This document shows, in pieces, positions 36,291 through 42,581 of a DNA stretch of 64,000 nt. The notes beneath the pieces were generated by a model. It searched no databases. It was not told where the DNA came from and saw only the letters and a program-made list of their open reading frames with translations. Both the position numbers and the translations under genes were made by a program. The stretch comes from Polynucleobacter sp. JS-JIR-II-b4 (GTDB lineage Bacteria; Pseudomonadota; Gammaproteobacteria; Burkholderiales; Burkholderiaceae), in assembly GCF_018687815.1 (NCBI RefSeq), contig NZ_CP061306.1, forward strand, positions 434,001-498,000. The letters run 5' to 3'. Every line of letters starts with the position of its first letter. The stretch's first letter is position 1.

Positions 36291-38786
36291 ATGGCTGAAT
36301 CCCGTTCACGTTCCGTTACGCTGAATCCCGGCATGATGGGTTCTGGGGATGCAGTCGTGCAGGCTTTAAAAGTCCCGCCGCATTCTGTAGAAGCCGAGCA
36401 ATCTTTGCTCGGCGGTCTACTGATCGATAACTCTTCTTGGGATAACCTGGGTGGAGTATTAAACGATAAAGATTTCTATCGCCCCGAACATGCTTTGATC
36501 TACAAAGCGATTGCCCGTTTGGTTGGCGACAATCATCCCGCTGACGTTATTACCGTTCATGATGCAATTAAATCAGAGCAAGGTGGCGACTTAGTTGGTA
36601 TTGATTACCTAAATTCATTAGCGCAAAACACTCCCAGTGCAGCGAACATTAAAGGCTATGCTGATATTGTTCGTGACCGCAGTATTTTGCGTCGCTTGAT
36701 TGAAGTGTCAGACAGCATTGTTAATTCTGCATTCGTTCCTGAGGGACGCACTGTTAGAACGCTGTTGGATGAAGCTGAGTCACGCATTCTTCAGATTGGT
36801 GAAGAAGGTAGTCGCAAAGCTGACTATCTTGAGATTGAGCCTTTGCTGAAAGCTGTTGTTGCCCGTATTGATGAGCTCTATAACCGCCAAGGCGGTAGCG
36901 ACATCACTGGTATTGCAACTGGCTTCATAGATTTAGATAAGCAAACTAGTGGTCTGCAAAAAGGTGACTTAGTGATTGTTGCGGGAAGACCCTCGATGGG
37001 TAAGGCGCAACCACTGGATGCAAAAGTGAAAACGGTTGATGGCTGGAAGTTGATGGGTGATCTTAAGTTTGGTGATCGCCTGGCTTCCGTTGATGGCCAG
37101 CATTCAATGGTGACTGGCATTTATCCGCAAGGTCTTAAGCAGATATACAAAGTTACCTTTTCCGATGGCCGTCAAGCTGAGTGCTGTGATGAGCATCTCT
37201 GGCGGGTGATGTATCGCGATTGGTCCGAGCCACGCGTTATTAATACAACTCGCTTGATGGAAATGTTGCAGTGTGTGCGATATAAAAATAGGCTTTGGAT
37301 TGAACCAGTAAGTGGAGAATTTGGACATTCAAAAGAACTGCCCATTCATCCTTGGGTTCTTGGTGCTTTGTTAGGTGATGGAACTCTGGCGCTATCTCAC
37401 AGTAGTGTGATGTTTTCGACTAAATCACCTGAGTTTATAGATCGCATGAATATGCTTGCAGGCTATGAGATGGAGTTGGCTCATGCTAATGCATACGACT
37501 GGAGAGTAGTCTCTAAAGCTAGAATCGCAGCCAATGGCGCACGTCAAGCAGTTCCAACGAATTATTTCAGGTCTGCATTGCAGGATTTAGGTGTTCTTGG
37601 CTGCAGAAGTTTTGATAAATACATTCCCTCTACTTATCTAGAGGCGAATAAGAATTCTCGTCTTGCATTGTTCCAGGGTTTGATGGATACGGATGGATGG
37701 ATTGAGAAGTGGGGCTCTATTCGCTTTTGTACAGCAAGCAAACAATTATCTGAAGATGTTGCAACTTTAGCCAGATCTTTGGGTGGTTTTTGCTCAATAG
37801 CGCATAAGCAGACAAGCTATACCTACAAGGGTGAAAAGAAGCAAGGTCGCCTAAGTTATGTTTTAAATATGAGTTTTGGCCCTGGTTTTCAAGCTTTTAC
37901 TCTGCCTGAAAAGACTGAAAGGTTAAGAGCCAACTGGGATCGACAGCGTAGGTTGACCTTTACGAGCATTGAGTCATCCAGAGTGACTGAAGCGCAATGT
38001 ATTTCAGTTAGCCATCCTCAAAGAACTTACGTAACGAATGATTATGTCGTTACTCACAACACTGCATTTGCCTTAAATATTGCCGAGAACGTTGCCTTAG
38101 CAGAAGGTTTGCCTGTTGTTGTGTTCTCCATGGAGATGTCAGGCGAACAATTGGCTGCCCGTTTATTGGGTTCGGTGGGGCGCGTAGACCAAGGTCGTAT
38201 GCGTACTGGTAAGTTGCAGGACGATGAGTGGCCGCGTGTCACTGATGCCATTGCACGTTTAAGTAATACCCAAATTTTGATTGATGAGACTGGTTCTTTA
38301 TCCAGCTTAGAGTTGCGCGCACGCGCACGTCGTATCGCCAGAAACTTTGGCGGCACACTTGGCTTGGTGGTGATTGACTACTTACAGTTGATGAGTGGTT
38401 CTGGTTCTGAAAACCGCGCAACCGAGATTTCTGAAATCTCACGCTCACTCAAATCACTTGCAAAAGAATTGCAGTGCCCTGTAGTGGCGCTCTCTCAGTT
38501 AAACCGTGGTCTTGAGCAACGCCCTAATAAGCGTCCGATCATGTCTGACTTGCGTGAGTCAGGCGCTATTGAGCAAGATGCCGACTTAATTATGTTCATC
38601 TATCGTGATGAGGTGTATCACCCTGATACCACTACCGATAAAGGTGTGGCAGAAATCATCATCGGTAAGCAGCGTAACGGTCCAATCGGTACAGTGCGCT
38701 TAAGCTGGCAAGGTCCATATACCAAGTTTGATAACTTAGCGATGGGCTCTGTTGGATATTCATCTGGTGGATACGAGCCGTTCTAA
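36291..38786 (+). CDS. dnaB: Replicative DNA helicase DnaB with in-frame intein
   Basis: Hexameric 5'-3' helicase of the replication fork. The translated protein has 831 residues; removal of the 352-residue intein (residues 239-590) leaves 479, the normal DnaB size. The N-terminal domain (about 25-140) contains PHSVEAEQSLLGGLL. The Walker A motif is split exactly after its lysine, GRPSMGK before the intein and Thr591 after it. Walker B region VIDYLQLM and the arginine-finger region SQLNRGLEQRPNKRP follow. Activity of the host protein therefore depends on splicing. Confidence 0.97.
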   Translation: MAESRSRSVTLNPGMMGSGDAVVQALKVPPHSVEAEQSLLGGLLIDNSSWDNLGGVLNDKDFYRPEHALIYKAIARLVGDNHPADVITVHDAIKSEQGGDLVGIDYLNSLAQNTPSAANIKGYADIVRDRSILRRLIEVSDSIVNSAFVPEGRTVRTLLDEAESRILQIGEEGSRKADYLEIEPLLKAVVARIDELYNRQGGSDITGIATGFIDLDKQTSGLQKGDLVIVAGRPSMGKAQPLDAKVKTVDGWKLMGDLKFGDRLASVDGQHSMVTGIYPQGLKQIYKVTFSDGRQAECCDEHLWRVMYRDWSEPRVINTTRLMEMLQCVRYKNRLWIEPVSGEFGHSKELPIHPWVLGALLGDGTLALSHSSVMFSTKSPEFIDRMNMLAGYEMELAHANAYDWRVVSKARIAANGARQAVPTNYFRSALQDLGVLGCRSFDKYIPSTYLEANKNSRLALFQGLMDTDGWIEKWGSIRFCTASKQLSEDVATLARSLGGFCSIAHKQTSYTYKGEKKQGRLSYVLNMSFGPGFQAFTLPEKTERLRANWDRQRRLTFTSIESSRVTEAQCISVSHPQRTYVTNDYVVTHNTAFALNIAENVALAEGLPVVVFSMEMSGEQLAARLLGSVGRVDQGRMRTGKLQDDEWPRVTDAIARLSNTQILIDETGSLSSLELRARARRIARNFGGTLGLVVIDYLQLMSGSGSENRATEISEISRSLKSLAKELQCPVVALSQLNRGLEQRPNKRPIMSDLRESGAIEQDADLIMFIYRDEVYHPDTTTDKGVAEIIIGKQRNGPIGTVRLSWQGPYTKFDNLAMGSVGYSSGGYEPF
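37005..38060 (+). mobile_element. Class 3-type intein with LAGLIDADG homing endonuclease (DnaB Walker A site)
   Basis: A 352-residue protein intron. Its first residue is Ala, not the usual Cys or Ser. Block B has H64-L-W66, block F has Cys332 (QCISV), and block G is T350-H351-N352 followed by extein Thr. Trp, Cys and Thr in these places form the WCT signature of class 3 inteins, which splice through the block F Cys. Two LAGLIDADG motifs are intact: LGALLGDGT (119-127) and FQGLMDTDGWI (223-233). The frame is open throughout, so splicing and homing could both still work. Class 3 inteins are thought to have spread through phages. Confidence 0.93.
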
Positions 38787-38880: not shown

Positions 38881-39147
38881 TTATTTACCGCCTTCACATT
38901 TCTTAATTGAGGCTGCTTTAGCTGCACCATACAGTGGCTTACCATCTTTGCTAATTGCTTTAGCTTCACAATCGTTCGGCTTGGCATCACCCATGCACTT
39001 CTTAATGGAAGCATCTTTAGCTGCGCCATACAGCGGCTTTCCTTCTTTGCTCACTGCCTTGGCTTCACAGGCTGCTTGATCAGCAAAAGCGTAAGTAGGA
39101 AGCGCAAAGCTCAGGGCAATACTTAAAGCGATGATGATTTTTTTCAT
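38881..39147 (-). CDS. Small secreted protein with two Cys-bounded repeats (PsiF-like)
   Basis: An 88-residue protein with a signal peptide, cleavage likely after AFA (about residue 22). The mature part has two 25-residue repeats, C27-C51 and C60-C84, differing at only three positions; each starts CEAKA, holds GKPLYGAAK and ends ASIKKC. The layout resembles the PsiF repeat family of periplasmic proteins, but I cannot confirm it. Two disulfide bonds are plausible. ATG 39147 is preferred over ATG 39153, since GGAG lies at better distance. Function is unknown. Confidence 0.8.
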   Translation of the reverse strand: MKKIIIALSIALSFALPTYAFADQAACEAKAVSKEGKPLYGAAKDASIKKCMGDAKPNDCEAKAISKDGKPLYGAAKAASIKKCEGGK

Positions 39148-39338
39148 GCTCATTCTCCAGGTGGGTGATTAGGCTCAAGCTTACTTTAGTTCTCAAAACA
39201 ATTATTGATGATTATGTAAGTTGGAAGTATTAGCCCTAAGGTTAATAGATATTAACTATATGGGTAATTATTATTAACCCTATTAATATCAGTGGCTTAG
39301 CCACTTCTTTTATATCTAAATCCGCTAGAGCAAGCCCA

Positions 39339-42300
39339 ATGAAAAGCAAGATTCTGTTTCGCAGCCTATTAAGTTTTGGAGTTACTTACATGCTCCTAGG
39401 TTTCTCATCATTCTCGATCGCAGCAGGTAGCTGTGATAACTACACTCCGGATATAAACGGAACTGTAGTGACGTGTACTGGAGTCGGTAGCACATCAGCA
39501 GGCGTTATTTCGACCCAGTCAAATACAACAGTGGGCAATAGCGTTACTGTAAACATTAACTCTGGTACTTCATTAATCATCAATGGCTCTACAGTGGGCA
39601 TTGGTAGTGCAGCCACAGTAGTTAATGATGGAAATTTAAATACCAGTGCATTTTATTTTGGCTATGGTATTTCATCAGGAGTTAACGGAAGATCTCAGGC
39701 AGGTGGCAGCAGCATTACTAACAACGGCACTATTTACACGGGTGGTACGAGCGCATCAGGCATTTACATCAGTGCAACTAATGCTGGTTCTGCGGCTAAT
39801 ACGATCATCAATACTGGCTCCATCACAACAGCGGGCTCTGGTGCAAATGGTATTCAGGTTGTTAATGGTGGAGCAATCACTGCCATTAATAACTCGGGAG
39901 TAATTTCTGCTCAAGGGGCTAATTCAAATGGAATTCAAGTAACGGGCGCAGCAAATATCACTAACTCAGGAACCATATGCCCATCAACGGTTGTTGGCAG
40001 CAATTGCGCTGCAAGTGGCGCGGGTAGTGGCAACGGCATCCAAATTGATAACAATGCCAATGCCAATCGCACTACCATCACCAATACATCATCCGGCTTA
40101 ATAGGTGCTCCTACAGCAGCAAATTACGCAATCTACAGCGCTCAGCAACCTGGGGTGGATGTATATAACTACGGAAAAATTATTGCTGCAAGTGCTGCCG
40201 CTACTGCAATTAATTTTGCTGGCTCGACAACGGGCGGATCTAATAACACTGTTACTTTATATGGCGGCTCTACTTTGTTAGGCGGCATTAGTTTTAATAA
40301 GGGCAACACACAAGAAACCCTGAGCTTTAACGGGCTTTCAAATACAAACTTCAGTAATGCCGTAACTGGTCTGAATATCATCAACGCCACTAATAACTCT
40401 AACGTAGTGATGAATAGCTCCTCCGGATATGAATTAGTGTCTGGAAAAGTTGCTGTAGATAGTACTTCCAGCTTAGCTATTTCTGGAGTAATTCAGGATC
40501 AAACTAGCCCAAGTGCTGCTGCTTCTAGCATTGAGAAAAGTGGGGCTGGAACTTTAGTTTTATCCGGTGCTAATACTTACACGGGTGGCACAGTGTTGAA
40601 TGCGGGAACCATTGCGGTTGCCAATAATACAGCCCTCGGTACTGGTTCTGTAACGATGGCAGGTGGCACAACCCTGCAAGCAAACTCTTCAGTAAATCTT
40701 GCTAATAATGTTGCTTTATCTGGTGCGAGCACTATCAACACCAATGGAAATAACATGGGCCTGTCAGGGAATATGGCGGGATCTGGTGGATTTACAAAAA
40801 TAGGTGCTGGCACCTTAACCCTCTCCGGTACCAATACCTATAGTGGTGGTACTACCGTTTCAGCAGGCACGTTGGCCGGTAATACCTCAAGTATTCAAGG
40901 TAACGTAGTTAACAATGCAATCCTTAATTTCAATCAGTCTGCCAATGGCGCATATGCTGGCGTGATGAGTGGATCAGGTAGTCTGGTTAAAGATGGCTCT
41001 GGCACCGTAACAATTTCTAAGGTCAATACTTACACCGGCGATACAAACATTAATGCGGGTAGTCTCATAATAACTGGCTCGACTACATCAAATACTTCTA
41101 TTGCTGCCAGTGCTAACTTGCAAGGCAGTGGTGTTATTAATGGCAACGTAACTAACTCAGGAACAATTACCCCATCATTTAACGGTACTGCAACCAACCT
41201 GACAGTTAACGGAAACTACGTTGGTAATAATGCTGCCTTTGTTGGTGGTGTATACGCTCCAGTTGCTTCACCTGTTGCAGATACCTTGACTGTAACTGGC
41301 AACACCACAGGTTCTACTGGACTCACTATTACTGATAAGGGTGGTCTCGGTAATCGCACAACTGGCAATGGTATTCCGGTAGTGATTGTGAATGGAGCTT
41401 CCGCATCCAATGCATTTGCATTAACTCAGCGTGTTGCAGCTGGTGCCTATGAATACCAGTTATACAAAGGTGGTACATCTGGAGTGGGAAATTCTTGGTA
41501 CCTGTTTACTCAAGCACCAGCTCCAGCATCCACACCTGGCTCTGGCGGCTCAACGCCAGCTCCTGTTACTCCAGCCGTTCCTGCAGCCCCAGTCATCACT
41601 CCAGCGGCTGGTGAGCGTATCGAGGTTGCTGTTTATCCAGCCGTACCTTCATTAGTGCAGTTGTATGCGCAGACAGCCGTAGATACACTAGATCAACGCC
41701 GTGGAGATCTTAATTTGGTTGATCCGCAGGGTGGCGCCAAGAAGAGCTCTAACGATTGGGCTCGTATTATTGGTAAGGCAGGCACATCAACTCCATCTTC
41801 AGCGAATGATGGCCCGAAGATGAGCTTTAATGCTTATGCTTTGCAGTTGGGTGTAGACGTGTATCAGAATGAAGAGCAGAGTGGATCAAGATCATATGTC
41901 GGCCCTTATGTAACGATTGGTAGCGCTAATGCCAATACCTCTAGTCAGACTGGTGGGATCTCTACCGGTAGCATTAATGGCATGCAGGCCTACTCTCTAG
42001 GCTTATACGGGACCCACTTTGCTGCTAATGGCCTGTATGTTGATGCTCTTGCACAAGGTACTCGCTACCTCAATGCGGGGGCCAGTTCTGCACAAGGTGC
42101 GCAGCTCAGAACACAAGGATCTGGCTTTACTGGATCCCTTGAGGGTGGCGGTCGCTGGAACTTCGATAAGTTCTTAATTTCTCCGCAAGCTCAAATCGTG
42201 TATGACGCCATTGGCATGAATAATGCTACTGATGCCTACGGTCAAGTGAACTTTAATAAAAGTGAGATGACTCGTGGCCGTTTAGGTTTATTAGCTGGTC

Positions 42301-42581
42301 ATAAGGATGTTGTTGGTAGCACTCCCATCTTTGCGTATTTGCGTGCCAGCTATTGGAGTATCTTTAATGCAGGCACCAGCACGACTATGGCTTCGCTCTA
42401 TGGTGTTAATCCGATCACTTTTCAGTCGCAAGCAAACTCACGCTGGATGACTGTAGATGCTGAATTAAATGCACGCATCACAAAAGACACTAATCTGTTT
42501 CTGAACTTAGCTGTTGATAACTCCTTAGTGGGAACTTATCAGGCTTACTCCGGAAGAATTGGTCTGCAGACTCGTTTCTAA
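39339..42581 (+). CDS. Type V autotransporter with beta-strand passenger repeats
   Basis: A 1080-residue surface protein. A signal peptide (about 1-29, ending SIAAG) leads into a Ser/Thr/Asn/Gly-rich beta-helical passenger. Three autotransporter-associated repeats (GAGTLxLSGxNTYxGGT type) occur near residues 404, 487 and 553. A Pro/Ala linker (about 727-755) precedes the C-terminal beta-barrel (about 800-1080), which ends in Phe as outer-membrane barrels do. No protease or lipase motif is seen, so adhesion is the likeliest role, by inference. The 185 bases upstream are AT-rich and probably hold its promoter. Confidence 0.92.
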   Translation: MKSKILFRSLLSFGVTYMLLGFSSFSIAAGSCDNYTPDINGTVVTCTGVGSTSAGVISTQSNTTVGNSVTVNINSGTSLIINGSTVGIGSAATVVNDGNLNTSAFYFGYGISSGVNGRSQAGGSSITNNGTIYTGGTSASGIYISATNAGSAANTIINTGSITTAGSGANGIQVVNGGAITAINNSGVISAQGANSNGIQVTGAANITNSGTICPSTVVGSNCAASGAGSGNGIQIDNNANANRTTITNTSSGLIGAPTAANYAIYSAQQPGVDVYNYGKIIAASAAATAINFAGSTTGGSNNTVTLYGGSTLLGGISFNKGNTQETLSFNGLSNTNFSNAVTGLNIINATNNSNVVMNSSSGYELVSGKVAVDSTSSLAISGVIQDQTSPSAAASSIEKSGAGTLVLSGANTYTGGTVLNAGTIAVANNTALGTGSVTMAGGTTLQANSSVNLANNVALSGASTINTNGNNMGLSGNMAGSGGFTKIGAGTLTLSGTNTYSGGTTVSAGTLAGNTSSIQGNVVNNAILNFNQSANGAYAGVMSGSGSLVKDGSGTVTISKVNTYTGDTNINAGSLIITGSTTSNTSIAASANLQGSGVINGNVTNSGTITPSFNGTATNLTVNGNYVGNNAAFVGGVYAPVASPVADTLTVTGNTTGSTGLTITDKGGLGNRTTGNGIPVVIVNGASASNAFALTQRVAAGAYEYQLYKGGTSGVGNSWYLFTQAPAPASTPGSGGSTPAPVTPAVPAAPVITPAAGERIEVAVYPAVPSLVQLYAQTAVDTLDQRRGDLNLVDPQGGAKKSSNDWARIIGKAGTSTPSSANDGPKMSFNAYALQLGVDVYQNEEQSGSRSYVGPYVTIGSANANTSSQTGGISTGSINGMQAYSLGLYGTHFAANGLYVDALAQGTRYLNAGASSAQGAQLRTQGSGFTGSLEGGGRWNFDKFLISPQAQIVYDAIGMNNATDAYGQVNFNKSEMTRGRLGLLAGHKDVVGSTPIFAYLRASYWSIFNAGTSTTMASLYGVNPITFQSQANSRWMTVDAELNARITKDTNLFLNLAVDNSLVGTYQAYSGRIGLQTRF

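Follow-up and report, generated by a model that had tools for sequence, protein, structure and literature searches.

A full-length class 3 intein at the P-loop of the DnaB helicase of a Polynucleobacter strain, patchily present across the genus

The replicative DNA helicase gene of Polynucleobacter sp. JS-JIR-II-b4 is split within its Walker A motif, which raises the questions of what the insert is, to which class of intein it belongs, and how it came to reside there. The window, i.e. the whole 64,000-nucleotide stretch that was analysed, comprises bases 434001-498000 of a genome that is one contig of 2,019,242 bases; coordinates below are window positions, and all features lie on the + strand. 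The intein-bearing dnaB occupies 36291..38786 (831-aa ORF, coordinates including the stop). Its N-extein (36291..37004) ends in GRPSMGK, i.e. Walker A through its Lys, and its C-extein (38061..38786) begins with the Thr of Walker A, here Thr+1. Between them lies an insert of 352 aa at 37005..38060. An earlier note on this DNA had given these borders, named the key residues and placed the split of Walker A after its Lys (GRPSMGK/T), and the translation agrees exactly on every one of these points. Joined computationally, the exteins make a DnaB of 479 aa, the length that had been predicted. A domain search puts the Pfam DnaB N and C domains on the two flanks of the insert and LAGLIDADG_3 within it.

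Chance and misassembly can both be dismissed as the source of the insert. The genome assembles into one contig, and in the genus 71 genomes (this one included) carry an insert of this kind while 95 have the gene uninterrupted, which rules out the assembly artefact that the earlier note had considered. The junctions GRPSMGK/A ... THN/T occur in 69/69 of the fetched unique genus sequences of the full type. A genome search returned one DnaB match, the intein-bearing dnaB. Upstream lie genes for ribosomal protein S6, a single-strand-binding-like protein, S18 and L9; the neighbourhood is an ordinary chromosomal stretch, and no phage genes were seen in a scan of the eight neighbouring ORFs and two further ORFs of the window. 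GC content is 0.44 in the insert and 0.475 in the exteins, close enough that composition hints little at recent foreign origin. The genome gave no match to the TIGR01445 model, which misses the dnaB intein as well, so that other inteins are possible.

Class 3 inteins are recognized by a residue 1 that is not the class 1 nucleophile, together with the WCT triplet, made up of a Trp at position 12 of block B, an F4 Cys and a G5 Thr (PMC3196547). All of these are found here. The N-terminal part of the splicing domain (residues 1-98, blocks A and B, 37005..37298, approximate borders) starts without a nucleophile, at Ala1 (37005..37007), and contains His64 at block B position 10 (37194..37196) followed two residues later by Trp66 at position 12 (37200..37202); the equivalents in MchDnaB1 are Trp67 and His65. 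The C-terminal part (residues 318-352, blocks F and G, 37956..38060, borders again approximate) contains Cys332 at block F position 4 (37998..38000), the predicted first nucleophile, and closes with Thr350-His351-Asn352 (38052..38060), where Thr350 is G5 and the C-terminal junction reads THN/T. Residues were parsed in 200 of the 201 fetched loci with a match, the exception being L028, whose N end is cut off by the contig end, and F4 Cys is present in 200/200. Across 40 genus loci, 80 loci of named genomes and 79 viral loci, F4 Cys, G5 Thr, His64 and Asn are invariant. B12 is Trp in 40/40, 80/80 and 71/79 of these sets, respectively, the remaining eight viral loci having Phe, and residue 1 is Ala in 40/40, 79/80 and 59/79, with Cys in three viral loci.

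A phylogeny against other inteins leads to the same class. We built a maximum-likelihood tree of 89 splicing domains after removing the columns for residue 1, B12, F4 and G5: 71 rows were collected either as class 3 references or for their kinship to the window's intein, and 18, all with Cys1, were gathered via the TIGR01445 model or the DnaB H4 site. A single branch with support 100/99 parts the two sets and leaves the window's intein on the class 3 side, in a tree of 141 usable columns with several long branches and with sets drawn from searches biased to each class. Two of the 71 rows have Cys at residue 1 despite WCT, and among the 18 there are single rows with a B12 Trp or a G5 Thr. Modelled with AlphaFold2 (pLDDT 91.7), the intein contains the HINT splicing fold; the model matches PI-SceI, the yeast VMA intein, over its full length, splicing and LAGLIDADG domains alike, and its splicing domain matches the class 3 DnaB intein 6bs8. 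PI-SceI, a class 1 intein, differs in its host gene and is 19% identical; the mycobacterial class 3 DnaB intein is 29% identical over 123 aligned residues in the structure comparison. Class 1 splicing domains fit the model about equally, so the fold by itself does not assign class. Residues, the tree without class-defining columns and the predicted fold all agree, supporting the class 3 membership that the earlier note had proposed.

Two other classes were considered and set aside. Class 1 is ruled out by Ala1, since Cys or Ser would be needed there, and by the tree; class 2 is ruled out by the WCT triplet, by the DnaB host (class 2 is found in KlbA) and again by the tree. A related question is whether the intein might take a class 2-like route, with Thr+1 attacking the N-terminal junction directly and Cys332 incidental, given that class 2 inteins also lack the residue 1 nucleophile (PMC3196547). 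We consider this extremely improbable: Cys F4, Trp B12 and Thr G5 are all there, the class 3 placement was obtained without those columns, and F4 Cys is reported as essential in the class 3 inteins tested (PMC5222942, PMC7891396).

The insertion point between the Walker A Lys and Thr is site b of DnaB, in the P-loop, a location already termed 'classic' for inteins (PMC5050341) and shared with the DnaB inteins of M. smegmatis and M. leprae. M. smegmatis DnaBi1 is described as a class 3 mini-intein at this very site (PMC6195587). This intein and the DnaB1 inteins of M. leprae and M. chimaera (PDB 6bs8, 6rix) have in common with the window's intein the DnaB host, the missing residue 1 nucleophile, the WCT triplet and the HINT fold, predicted in our case. 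The M. smegmatis and M. leprae inteins are described as having no endonuclease (PMC6195587), whereas the window's intein keeps its LAGLIDADG domain, and the +1 residue is Ser in M. smegmatis DnaBi1 but Thr here.

The earlier note had also held that such an intein in a betaproteobacterium would extend the range of a rare splicing class, and this did not survive. By 2020, 1,701 class 3 inteins had been counted, 82.5% of them with LAGLIDADG motifs (PMC7891396), and a class 3 mini-intein that splices, in IcmO of Burkholderia vietnamiensis, was published in 2016 (PMC5222942). By its published description the IcmO intein is, like the window's intein, a class 3 intein of a betaproteobacterium, but it is plasmid-borne, sits in another host protein, is a mini-intein and is followed by Cys+1. 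Against the claim stand also DnaB P-loop relatives in many Burkholderiales and in bins that bear the labels of other phyla. Among one-genome-per-species contigs 496 relatives were confirmed, and in the best 80, which were kept, the flanks are DnaB P-loops, the insert directly follows Lys in 79 (the N end of L175 is disturbed) and the C-extein begins with Thr in 80/80. Record titles among these best 80 of 496 include Polynucleobacter, Limnobacter, Burkholderia, Paraburkholderia, Trinickia, Ramlibacter, Rhizobacter, Roseateles, Caulobacter and Gallionella, as well as bins labelled Rokuibacteriota, Phycisphaerae, Zixibacteria and Saccharibacteria, labels that can err. The P-loop inteins in DnaB of Limnobacter, Burkholderia, Paraburkholderia, Trinickia, Ramlibacter, Rhizobacter and others (L143, L144, L149-L190) share site and splicing residues with the window's intein, are 346-355 aa long, have the LAGLIDADG acidic residues in nearly all cases, and are 46-71% identical to it over the best segment. 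In an order-level sample of 250 genomes, 238 genomes from outside the genus gave a match, and at least 8 of them have the insert. Relatives are thus widespread, and the single intein is a further example of an already known kind, ordinary when taken alone. The papers searched include none on Polynucleobacter inteins, although an earlier listing in InBase is possible; among the matches listed, no study deals with inteins in the DnaB of Burkholderiales, and the one on IcmO (PMC5222942) comes nearest.

If the intein works as the studied class 3 inteins do, Cys332 would attack the peptide bond between Lys(-1) and Ala1, so that an internal branched thioester forms, the N-extein would pass to Thr+1 in a second branched ester, Asn352 would cyclise and so release the intein, and an acyl shift would yield a native 479-residue DnaB with Walker A intact. 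The LAGLIDADG homing endonuclease domain (residues ~110-310, 37332..37934) is indicated by domain search, selection and predicted fold. It bears Asp125 in the first motif, LGALLGDG (37377..37379), and Asp228-Thr229-Asp230 in the second, FQGLMDTDG (37686..37694), and would presumably cleave dnaB alleles that lack the intein, at the codons of Walker A, whereupon repair would copy the intein in; the gene of the intein probably copies itself between genomes in this way. What the analysis shows is the residues, the insertion site, the class to which the intein belongs, its predicted fold, the purifying selection on it and its patchy occupancy; the last two fit an active homing endonuclease. Splicing and its steps, DNA cutting and homing are inferred. 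Very probably, this is a full-length class 3 intein in the P-loop of a chromosomal, apparently single-copy DnaB, and a self-splicing and homing element.

Class 3 pseudogenes are known (PMC3196547), and the insert might instead be a decayed, non-splicing intein like that of Arthrobacter FB24. This is scarcely credible here, with all catalytic residues intact, dN/dS of 0.04-0.06 in the splicing domain, and no second DnaB match in the genome, such that a non-splicing copy should be lethal. The one DnaB match likewise suggests that splicing is probably obligatory for growth. Median dN/dS, taken over pairs with usable dS (551 to 1,518 of 2,278), is 0.041 in the N part of the splicing domain, 0.065 in the endonuclease and 0.062 in the C part, and for the exteins 0.033 (N-extein) and 0.016 (C-extein). 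The low endonuclease value indicates purifying selection, i.e. that the endonuclease is being kept, and both LAGLIDADG motifs, with the acidic Asp125 and Asp228/Asp230, are present in 40/40 genus loci.

Four genus loci (L239-L242) retain the splicing residues A1, His, Trp, Cys, Thr, His and Asn, and have destroyed endonuclease motifs: in place of LLGDGT they read LLGSIE or the like, and in place of LMDTDG, LMASFA or the like. When L239 and L240 are compared with L242, a fraction of 0.40-0.41 of the nonsynonymous sites differs in the endonuclease and 0.09-0.13 in the splicing parts; in the intact set, median dN is 0.095 in the endonuclease vs 0.078 and 0.085 in the splicing parts. Judging from these three sequences, constraint is relaxed on the endonuclease only. 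As a separate observation, the H4 motif of L239 and L242 holds a further mini-intein, of class 1 type and ~140 residues long (DLRE/C...HN/SGAIEQ); it is also found in L240 (144 residues), and L241 begins the same insert. Two inteins in one DnaB is the layout described for M. smegmatis (PMC6195587).

How the intein is distributed bears on homing. Each of 186 Polynucleobacter genomes was searched with two queries, the complete 831-residue protein and the joined exteins, and 14 gave no match. The insert is present in 75 of the 172 with a dnaB match; the site is empty in 95, where a continuous match spans the insertion point, and two (G028, G185) could be given neither label; the carrier and empty lists are disjoint and complete. 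Carriers comprise 71 of the full kind, three of them with dnaB cut by a contig end (G153, G105, G179), and four of the ruined-endonuclease version (G093, G177, G188, G076). Occupied, empty and ruined-endonuclease sites within one genus are as a homing cycle predicts.

On a quick extein tree of 143 sequences (many unresolved forks; identical loci entered once, L238 omitted as too short), the occupied/empty label changes 35 times, 19 of these changes being forced by well-supported branches; such counts cannot separate gain from loss, and dnaB itself may recombine. Close sisters often differ in occupancy (e.g. L085/L277, L094/L290, L106/L298). Occupancy is clustered on this tree, shuffled labels averaging 47.9 changes with 0/500 as low as observed, and so is partly inherited. 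An independent tree of the 900 bases upstream of dnaB (66 loci, few supported branches) requires 19 changes vs 18 for the extein tree on the same rows, with 154/500 shuffles as low, and neither backs nor contradicts the extein tree.

Movement of the intein can be traced in one group. Among L199, L204, L207 and L212, four-fold sites differ by 9-12% in the intein vs 37-46% in the exteins in 5/6 pairs, and identity falls at the intein borders, which suggests recent movement of the intein among them. Recent transfer was significant in 7/2,211 locus pairs, all within these four loci plus L201, and 2/2,211 pairs went in the opposite direction. The five loci are also neighbours in the extein tree (support 88), so the movement is between close relatives. 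Over all copies, the median four-fold difference is larger in the intein (0.595) than in the exteins (0.524), indicating that most copies are old. Out of 33 well-supported intein branches, 10 are well supported in the extein tree and 12 are in conflict with it. The picture suggested by these comparisons is of an old resident with turnover of presence and absence, not of a recent sweep. A recent transfer into the window's genome was hinted at by the pair L081/L298 (dS 0.66 in the intein, 2.1 and 1.5 in the exteins) and by the intein tree. We dropped it, because at four-fold sites, after correction, the window's own intein had no significant transfer pair and its topology tests were marginal or negative (p 0.04, 0.22, 0.22).

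Could the intein have come from a phage? Phage descent is possible, and many phage relatives are located in P-loops. Phage class 3 inteins, e.g. that in DnaB of Xanthomonas phage LucasX and those in helicases and terminases of mycobacteriophages, have the class 3 residues and mostly lie right after the P-loop Lys, and in the class tree the LucasX DnaB copy (L355) adjoins the cellular group from outside. Those phage inteins, however, are mostly in other host proteins and are 30-45% identical to the window's intein. A direct, recent arrival from a phage is very unlikely: the nearest viral relative is 45% identical over the best segment, with no copy above this among the best 80 of 111 confirmed viral loci, whereas the genus inteins are 76-92% identical, and those of Limnobacter and a gammaproteobacterial bin, at 70-71%, are also far above the viral copies. 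Moreover, in the class tree the cellular DnaB inteins group together (support 99/91), with the phage inteins outside. The best 60 of 579 phage records held no copy above 40.1% identity, and 40 listed of 41 plasmid records held none above 37.2%. The PHROGs matches of the insert are to phage helicase, primase and terminase families, presumably intein-containing ones, and are not taken as a clue to function.

The earlier note had raised the idea that splicing could gate replication. M. smegmatis DnaBi1 is likewise of class 3 and shares the P-loop site, and oxidants are reported to inhibit its splicing via a Cys48-Cys118 disulfide (PMC6195587). We think it unlikely that the Polynucleobacter intein is kept mainly as a regulatory switch of this sort, with oxidants or metals slowing splicing and so gating DnaB maturation and replication. 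M. smegmatis Cys48 aligns with Ile47 here, a position that is Ile in 40/40 genus loci and Cys in 0/40 genus, 0/80 named-genome and 2/79 viral loci. The M. smegmatis-type redox lock, i.e. a Cys at position 48 able to pair with the F4 Cys, is thus absent, and gating of that style would need another partner. With the site empty in 95/172 genus genomes with a match, a switch would at best be optional.

On the side of a switch are Cys60 and Cys61 (37182..37187) in block B, near the catalytic His64 in sequence and invariant in 40/40 genus loci. Numbered from His64 as B10, Cys61 is block B position 7, where class 1 inteins have the Thr of TxxH and M. smegmatis has Asp. Cys occupies B7 in 40/40 genus, 75/80 named-genome and 55/79 viral loci, whereas class 3 inteins are generally described as having no conserved B7 residue, with Gly or Asp in characterized cases and Ser in a studied one (PMC7891396). 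In the AceL NrdHF structure, the B7 Ser and a modelled C2:4 Cys are both reported to be near the N-scissile bond (PMC7891396), and by analogy Cys61 would be expected beside the N-terminal scissile bond. Perhaps Cys61 and Cys332 form an active-site pair that closes into a disulfide, a redox switch unlike that of M. smegmatis; we hold the idea to be quite unlikely. If true, the Cys61-Cys332 switch would be common to most DnaB P-loop class 3 inteins and would make replication in freshwater bacteria depend on their oxidative state.

The intein of the window, predicted to splice itself out and to home, is a full-length, endonuclease-bearing counterpart to the redox-sensing DnaB intein of mycobacteria, without its partner Cys. 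In a single genus whose genomes are small, one position in a gene presumed essential is variously empty, filled by an intact-looking homing intein, or filled by a copy that keeps its splicing residues and has a ruined endonuclease. With this set, one can test directly how a class 3 intein is gained, lost and degraded in a cellular gene of organisms other than mycobacteria and phages, and the patchy presence across Polynucleobacter offers a good natural system for the study of such elements.

The adjacent cysteines Cys60-Cys61 lie in block B of the window's intein (37182-37187), and they are nearly fixed among the cellular DnaB P-loop inteins: at the named loci Cys is found in 78 of 80 at the Cys60 column and in 75 of 80 at the Cys61 column. 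DnaBi1 of M. smegmatis, a class 3 mini-intein at the same DnaB site, differs from these cellular relatives in lacking Cys at both columns.

Further observations concern genomes of the genus: (i) Four DnaB genes (L239, L240, L241 and L242; ORFs of 966-971 aa) carry two inteins each: in the P-loop a class 3 intein whose endonuclease motifs are destroyed, and at the H4 site a mini-intein of class 1 type, roughly 140 aa long. (ii) The H4-site class 1-type mini-intein is the sole DnaB intein at L244, L245 and L246 (genomes G024, G003 and G103, respectively), where the ORFs are 631 aa and the P-loop is empty. (iii) Genome G005, 99% complete in 50 contigs, gave no DnaB match at E 0.001 with either the whole protein or the joined exteins, reflecting either a missing contig or a real oddity. 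(iv) A class 3-type intein at L261 (G008:C6:8665-9753) lies in a 957-aa open frame, inserted after GK and followed by a Ser; the only Pfam match in this frame is to the LAGLIDADG part, leaving the host protein without a Pfam name. Also among the fetched loci, the DnaB frames of L158, L161 and L162, which bear a P-loop intein, span 1227-1281 aa from stop to stop, long enough for one more insert.

Downstream of dnaB in the window lies an autotransporter gene with PATR repeats (39339-42581, + strand). A neighbouring 90-aa ORF (38881-39153, - strand) has an internal repeat around CEAKAxSKxGKPLYGAAKxASIKKC, and a Pfam search found no match for it.

Insertion of inteins into P-loops is, as such, already known (PMC5050341). 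The residue before the intein in the parsed viral relatives (L001-L080) is Lys in 77 of 79 and Arg in the other two; their ORF lengths and flanks vary widely, and most of the sites are P-loops of the GK type. As a group, these inteins favour the P-loops of many ATPases.
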